64,000 nt of DNA from Peribacillus simplex NBRC 15720 = DSM 1321 (lineage in GTDB: Bacteria > Bacillota > Bacilli > Bacillales > DSM-1321): the NCBI RefSeq assembly GCF_002243645.1, contig NZ_CP017704.1, positions 845,501 through 909,500 on the forward strand. Direction: 5' to 3'. Below, one piece after another: positions 728 through 5,435 of this stretch; position 1 is the stretch's first letter, and each line of letters begins with the position of its first letter. Below the pieces are notes generated by a model. The model was given only the letters and a program-made list of their open reading frames with translations. It did not search any database and was not told where the DNA came from. The translations under genes and the position numbers were made by a program.

Positions 728-1267
728 CTATTCGTCTTCGAATTCATCAAGGAAATCCGGATCTAAATCTTCGAAATCCTCATCATCGAAATCAGAGCCC
801 CAGTCATCCTCACAGCGGCCATCTGGACTTACAGCGACACAAATTTTCGTTTCGCCGACGACTTCCACAAAGAATTCCCTTTCCACATGGACAATGATTT
901 TTTGTCCACATGGGGAGATGCAAGCTTCTAAACAATTCGGCTGTTGGACAGCTTTTGCAGCGATTTCATGGTCATCAAGATAATCGGGATCACGGTATTT
1001 CAGCGAAATAACGTCGGTATATTGCACTTTTTCAGTTACAACTTCCGTCTTCGAATTATGGTTATAAGAATACCAGACGTTGATTTCGTAGCTGCCGTGA
1101 ATTTCTACCTTTTTGCCGACTTTCTTTGCATCGTATTTATGGTTGATGATCCAACAACCTAGAATGCTAGAAGGATGATGAGCCGGGCAAATGGTGTGAG
1201 AGGACTTTGTGAATTTACGTCCTTTTGCCACCACCGCTTTAGTAATTATCTCTCTATATTGTGACAT
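728..1267 (-). CDS. cotE: Spore coat morphogenetic protein CotE
   Basis: This 179-residue protein is close to the 181 residues of B. subtilis CotE, which directs assembly of the outer spore coat around the forespore. The N-terminal two thirds ([19 protein letters not shown] onward) form the conserved multimerisation and targeting part. The last 30 residues are a run of Asp and Glu ([19 protein letters not shown]), the acidic tail typical of CotE. An AGGAGGG ribosome binding site sits about 10 nt upstream of the ATG. The gene lies between ricA and mutS, each separated by terminators, and a sigma-K-like promoter is visible about 110 nt upstream. It is expected to be made in the mother cell. Confidence 0.97.
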
Positions 1268-4839: not shown

Positions 4840-5069
4840 GTACATTCCCCCTGAAATAGGGCTGCTCTCTTCATCTACCTTAATATGTAAAGATATGAAA
4901 AATCAATCACAAAAATACCATAATCGCTTTTGTACCGACCTTTTCACATTAATAATGATGATTTTTAGGGCATTCGTACATTTTTGTTAAATGGGTCATG
5001 TTTCTATAGCATCTTGTCCGCTCTCGAATAAGATATCTTGTAAAACAAAATTATGAAGGAGTGACTTAT

Positions 5070-5345
5070 ATGTCATGTGGATGCAATAATCACGATCATC
5101 ATGATCGGGACCGCGATCGGGACCGCGATCGGGACAGAGATAGGGACAGAGATCGGGACAGAGATAACGATAGAATCGCAGACGATTTTTGTCGTGCTGT
5201 GAGGGGCTGTAATAGGCGCGACCGCGATCGGGACCGCGATCGGGACCGTGATCGGGACCGTGATCGGGACCGCCATCACAATTGTTGTCGTAGAAGGAAT
5301 CGTTGCAATTTCTTCGGCTGTGGATTCAATAACGGTTGGTGGTAA
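5070..5345 (+). CDS. Arg-Asp dipeptide repeat protein, Cys-rich ends (hypothetical)
   Basis: I do not recognise this 91-residue protein as a named family. It has a Cys/His N-terminus (MSCGCNNHDHH), a first block of about ten Arg-Asp dipeptides, a short ordinary stretch (IADDFCRAVRGCN), a second block of about nine, and a Cys/Asn/Trp-rich tail (NCCRRRNRCNFFGCGFNNGWW). There are 8 cysteines. No signal peptide or membrane segment is visible. The ATG at 5070 is preceded by GAAGGAG with 8 nt spacing; a GTG at 5061 would overlap that site. Small Cys-rich, repeat-containing proteins are common in the Bacillus coat and exosporium, and cotE is nearby, so a spore-surface role is possible but is only inference. 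It is one of two plus-strand genes here. Confidence 0.75.
   Translation: MSCGCNNHDHHDRDRDRDRDRDRDRDRDRDRDNDRIADDFCRAVRGCNRRDRDRDRDRDRDRDRDRDRHHNCCRRRNRCNFFGCGFNNGWW
5103..5165 (+). repeat. 12-nt tandem repeat, block 1
   Basis: About five copies of a unit like GATCGGGACCGC (variants GATCGGGACAGA and GATAGGGACAGA) encode Asp-Arg-Asp-Arg. The block is much richer in G and C than its surroundings. Confidence 0.9.
5221..5273 (+). repeat. 12-nt tandem repeat, block 2
   Basis: More than four copies of the same 12-nt unit (variants with CGC or CGT before GATCGGGAC) encode the second Arg-Asp run. The near identity to block 1 suggests recent duplication or unequal recombination. Confidence 0.9.
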
Positions 5346-5400: not shown

Positions 5401-5435
5401 AAAAGGTTCACCCCATCTTTAGGGGTGAACCTTTT
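5401..5435. terminator. Bidirectional terminator between the Arg-Asp gene and korB
   Basis: A perfect 14-bp stem (5401-5414 with 5422-5435, AAAAGGTTCACCCC and complement) with a 7-nt loop has T runs on both sides. It serves the two convergent genes. Confidence 0.95.

Follow-up and report, generated by a model that had tools for sequence, protein, structure and literature searches.

We propose that the open reading frame at positions 5070 to 5345 of the window (the whole 64-kb stretch of DNA that was analysed, which lies on a single-contig genome of 5.65 Mb) probably encodes a small disordered protein of the spore coat, or of an outer spore layer, that is produced late in the mother cell and in which Arg-Asp (RD) spacers separate docking or cross-linking ends. 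The frame runs from an ATG at 5070 to a stop at 5345, and the open reading frame list and translation give a protein of 91 amino acids with the layout MSCGCNNHDHH(DR)10 DNDRIADDFCRAVRGCNR(RD)9 RHHNCCRRRNRCNFFGCGFNNGWW. Its start, core, tail, ribosome binding site, promoter and terminator are conserved across species, which indicates that it is a real gene. The features are listed below.

728 to 1267, minus strand: cotE, outer-coat morphogenetic protein (Pfam CotE, 1.1e-83).
5009 to 5035, plus strand: putative mother-cell sigma promoter, with GCA in the -35 position (5009 to 5011) and the -10 AATAAGATA (5027 to 5035); from the footprint in congeners.
5013 to 5019, plus strand: CTTGTCC box (GGACAAG in reverse complement), placed 7 bp ahead of the -10; from conserved upstream regions.
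5055 to 5061, plus strand: ribosome binding site GAAGGAG, from the sequence; conserved upstream of congener orthologues.
5070 to 5345, plus strand: coding sequence of the low-complexity Arg-Asp protein, 91 amino acids; from the open reading frame and homologues.
5070 to 5102, plus strand: N-terminal MSCGCNNHDHH, Cys/His-rich, from the translation; the MSC start is conserved in homologues.
5103 to 5162, plus strand: array 1, (DR)10, five 12-nt units; from TRF and translation.
5166 to 5210, plus strand: conserved core NDRIADDFCRAVRGC, a predicted low-confidence helix; from profile, alignment and AlphaFold.
5217 to 5270, plus strand: array 2, (RD)9, 12-nt units; from TRF and translation.
5274 to 5342, plus strand: C-terminal HHNCCRRRNRCNFFGCGFNNGWW, Cys/Arg-rich with an aromatic end; from homologue comparison.
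5401 to 5435, no strand: bidirectional terminator-like hairpin common to the gene and the convergent korB, kept 3' of orthologues.

The repeats stand out from the rest of the window. TRF placed the 12-nt arrays at 5103 to 5165 and 5220 to 5277 with 92-93% matches and found no further tandem arrays in the 64 kb, and at least five alternating charged pairs were absent from every other frame of the window. The GC content is 0.58 over 5100 to 5299 versus 0.32-0.45 in the flanks. The original prediction had described near-identical GC-rich 12-nt units in AT-rich surroundings, two RD runs of about ten and nine dipeptides, a ribosome binding site of the gene's own and an orientation opposite to its neighbours; all of this holds, and the runs are exactly 10 and 9 dipeptides long. 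It had also described Cys-rich ends, but the cysteines are not confined to the ends: two of the eight lie within the central core. Within the RD runs of this gene, the departures from the unit GATCGGGACCGC (CGC/CGT/AGA, CGG/AGG) are all synonymous. The repeats are neutral and contain no Ser, Thr or Tyr, and the net charge per residue (NCPR) of the whole protein is +0.04. AlphaFold gave no usable fold for the 91 amino acids: the model is disordered except for a low-confidence helix at residues 28-44 over the core, with a mean pLDDT of 44.

Homologues were found in 25 of 36 congeneric species, 23 of them by whole-protein search and two more by the core profile; the named relatives that carry the core are Peribacillus frigoritolerans, P. 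simplex and related strains, which makes Peribacillus very probably the genus of this spore former. A whole-protein scan of the genome contigs gave no match, probably through masking of the RD runs by the low-complexity filter, whereas a core-only profile did work. The MSC start, the core NDRIADDFCRAV[RK][GR]C and the Cys/Arg tail are kept in most of the 25 homologues, as are the promoter and the ribosome binding site. The original prediction was to fall if related strains lacked a homologue with a conserved start, ends and cysteines, and it survives, as 25 of the 36 congeners have one. It had noticed neither the conserved core that defines the family nor the aromatic C-terminus.

The core reads DFCRAV[RK][GR]C in congeners and DFCRAVRGC in the window gene. 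Across 30 copies of the core, six of its residues (F, C, R, V, C and the last R) never change, whereas the codons for them do, and the columns F, C, V and C show no variation in the alignment across genera, in which members of other genera read, for example, FRVPVRAYIRGEDFCRAVRRCRENDVAGEMDNRRRCRCRWF. The core profile matched 41 of 397 genomes of the order, in 13 genera, and 6 of 399 genomes across the class, mostly of the same order. The last residue was F, W or I in 45 of 47 true members (after exclusion by eye of four further pattern matches as spurious), compared with 4 of 45 ordinary open reading frames in the window. We have coined the name DFCRAV core family for proteins with [DE]DFCRAVxxC and an aromatic or Ile C-terminal residue, both of which the window gene has. 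Neither the window protein nor the core family matched a Pfam or NCBIfam family above cut-off; the family is unnamed in both and is without a characterised member. Weak profile matches of the SdrD/ClfA and zf_DPOE_2/SR-25 types were compositional or under the cut-off and were rejected, as were extra core matches in five genomes (G005, G019, G020, G001 and G021), which were stop-interrupted and had no matching open reading frame. One genome of a sister genus (L120:8844-9741, G036) carries two tandem core-gene paralogues, of which one contains a long run of Ser.

Comparison of the relatives indicates that the conserved part of the protein is the core and not the RD runs, which are exchanged for Asn, His or Ser. 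The longest RD run in the orthologues ranges from 1 to 13 RD, Asn and His runs take its place in L017-L020 and L022, and the core itself is duplicated in L003, L005, L006, L008, L009 and L011. The proteins have 8-14 Cys, and several carry His7 runs; in others the His runs are missing or shortened, and the spacing of the tail cysteines is variable. In the nearest relative, with 94.7% identity across 3.3 kb, array 1 is one 12-nt unit shorter and array 2 one unit longer, which supports the expectation that copy number may change. Among the 25 orthologues, between 0.25 and 0.58 of the residues are charged. Net charge per residue lies between +0.01 and +0.06 in 24 of them and is +0.10 in the other, a near-neutrality that is partly automatic because the runs consist of RD, Asn and His; the frames in this slot in core-less congeners, moreover, include acidic ones, and both points reduce its weight as evidence.

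The upstream region of the gene suggests that it may be expressed during sporulation. The promoter footprint is conserved in 23 congeners; the -35 position is ACA in several homologues, and the -10 is CATAAGATA or CATATGATA in others. Many relatives in several genera share a layout of -35 AC, CTTGTCC, 7-8 bp and CATAnnnTA. The motif [TC]GTCC was found 7-8 bp from a -10 in 31 of 48 upstream regions versus 0.07 expected by shuffling; as these regions are related, the count shows conservation and not independent enrichment. In Bacillus subtilis, sigmaK and sigmaE recognise the same -10, and the sigmaK spacing is 14-16 bp (PMC517825). These elements (-35 AC, 14-16 bp, CATAnnnTA) are clear in several relatives, and the upstream footprint of the relatives appears to match the sigmaK layout. 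The window gene is mismatched at both elements, so that its own match is imperfect: its -35 position has GC instead of AC, and its -10 departs from the consensus as listed above.

The CTTGTCC box is a candidate SpoIIID-like site, since its reverse complement, GGACAAG, resembles the SpoIIID consensus; a literature search for a textual form of that consensus gave no paper. SpoIIID sites that overlap RNA polymerase sites in B. subtilis are usually repressive, and a putative SpoIIID site overlapping this promoter would delay expression. TTGTCC together with a -10 occurs at six places genome-wide versus two in a reversed control, which is not a clear regulon.

The gene lies on the plus strand, and cotE, ymcA, miaB, tdh, korB, korA, a dipeptidase gene, spoVS, ymdB and rny all lie on the minus strand (names other than CotE were assigned by eye and, in relatives, by matches to the window). 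In this and sister genera it keeps its place, antisense between korB and tdh/miaB-ymcA-cotE and close to spoVS. The core gene is at another location in two congeners, and in one other genus it adjoins spo0A, as judged by eye. A coat-gene neighbourhood is by itself no proof of coat function. Indirect support for the coat role that had been suggested for the protein comes from a promoter of sporulation type and from a locus that contains cotE and spoVS.

Based on these observations, we have proposed a model for how the protein may work. Transcription would occur late in the mother cell from the gene's own promoter of the sigmaK/sigmaE type. The DFCRAVRGC core, the N-terminal MSC segment and the Cys/Arg-rich, aromatic-ended tail would serve as docking and cross-linking parts, with cross-linking through disulfides, and the (RD)n runs would act as charge-neutral, zwitterionic, hydrated spacers between them. 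The length of the runs would shift through slippage or recombination of the 12-nt unit. Peptides of strictly alternating DR are reported to be zwitterionic, hydrated and poorly interacting, not to phase separate in vitro and to lose affinity for charged partners (PMC9324279). These properties fit a spacer and speak against RNA binding or condensation. A literature search for an Arg-Asp coat protein gave no paper.

The protein would thereby work in a manner like that of CotG, in which interacting ends are kept apart by disordered charged repeats. A spacer model has been published for CotG, where deletion of the repeats alters coat permeability and their replacement does not (PMC9765600). Both are small, modular, disordered proteins of coat type, in which the N and C ends flank tandem charged repeats that grew out of a short unit and vary from species to species. 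Spore-coat location and phosphorylation by CotH are further marks of CotG-like proteins. However, the two have no sequence in common; the window protein has its own DFCRAV core; the repeats of CotG are mostly positive, whereas the Arg-Asp repeats are neutral; and CotG is encoded beside cotH, whereas the window gene is about 400 kb from cotH (G000:C1:1252312). The same genome contains a CotG-like open reading frame with TSRRRST repeats and an NCPR of +0.29, divergent from cotH (L133:5032-5427, G000:C1:1253531-1253926). Because the window gene is not next to cotH, its protein is not positive and the genome has a separate CotG-like frame, we do not regard it as a CotG-family member.

The Cys/His-rich N-terminus presumably also resembles that of CotY, CotZ and ExsY, which are Cys-rich, cross-linking surface-layer proteins of the crust and exosporium; we treat this as a lead only. 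The kinship with CotY/CotZ that it raised was not supported, since the window protein has no PF10612 match. PF10612 found nothing in this genome, with a positive B. subtilis control, and the outer layer of this species may be built differently.

Several other explanations must be weighed against a spacer protein. The 8-14 cysteines, the N-terminal HDHHD and the His7 runs of several orthologues would suit a coat protein that binds metal ions (e.g. Zn, Cu or Mn) in the spore surface through clusters of Cys, His and Asp; we think this unlikely, as the His runs are absent from some orthologues or reduced in them, the spacing of the tail cysteines varies and no known metal motif scored above cut-off. 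Slightly less likely again is a regulator or another mother-cell protein without a structural role, such as a small assembly factor that binds a morphogenetic protein and for which the runs are decoration. The short core, the sole strongly conserved element, could be a binding motif, and cotE is in the locus, but the gene is away from cotE in other genera, and fast turnover outside the core together with the Cys-rich tail better suits structural material.

An RNA-binding or condensate-forming protein like U1-70K that acts through its RD runs seems improbable; RNA binding was among the roles that the original prediction had entertained. The window protein has two long RD runs and shares alternating Arg-Asp dipeptides with the mixed-charge domains of U1-70K/SNRNP70 and NELF-E, and a fusion of alternating (DR)50 to GFP localises to the nuclear speckles of human cells (PMC9324279). 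Those, however, are eukaryotic nuclear RNA proteins, whereas the window protein is bacterial, short and Cys-rich and has no RNA-binding domain above the Pfam/NCBIfam cut-offs; its RD runs are unconserved and evidently dispensable in relatives, and alternating D/R peptides behave as described above. Finally, low-complexity DNA opens other frames as well, and it does so here, as would be expected of a chance open reading frame or a non-functional minisatellite. The variation in the arrays and core is synonymous, and the cross-species conservation of the gene and its signals already refutes this idea, to which we give almost no weight.

If the gene does encode a coat spacer protein, it would represent an additional, unnamed family of coat type whose Arg-Asp spacer is zwitterionic by nature. 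The family would also provide a natural series of lengths and compositions for testing the permeability spacer model, which has so far been tested on CotG.

The slot is occupied even where the core is not found. Among the ten core-less congeners in which korB was located, six have another low-complexity open reading frame in the identical slot and orientation, and these frames look unrelated. Two of these frames are acidic (L142 and L144, NCPR about -0.2), and the others are rich in Arg/Glu (L146), Lys/Asp/Asn (L147) or Asn (L149); the sixth is L148. Upstream of four of the six (L142, L144, L148 and L149) there is a CTTGTCC sequence, similarly spaced from a -10-like element, and L147 has a variant. 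The C-terminal residue is aromatic or Ile in all except L148, with the ends FRWI, FSWI, FRWF and FNWF. By place and promoter only, these frames may be orthologues of the window gene. If so, they suggest that a promoter can outlast the coding sequence in one conserved slot, and in the korB-tdh slot the tail may have outlasted it too. A wider interpretation, which is possible but which we hold tentatively, is that of an unnamed mother-cell family that keeps its promoter, core and aromatic tail and exchanges the rest among RD, Asn, His, Ser and acidic sequence. Through turnover of the 12-nt unit, charge density and hydration would then be tuned in each species on its own, and the spore surface would tolerate this tuning or select for it, with net charge mostly near zero. 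In one congener (L140), the slot holds, as judged by eye, a transposase-like open reading frame of 440 amino acids.
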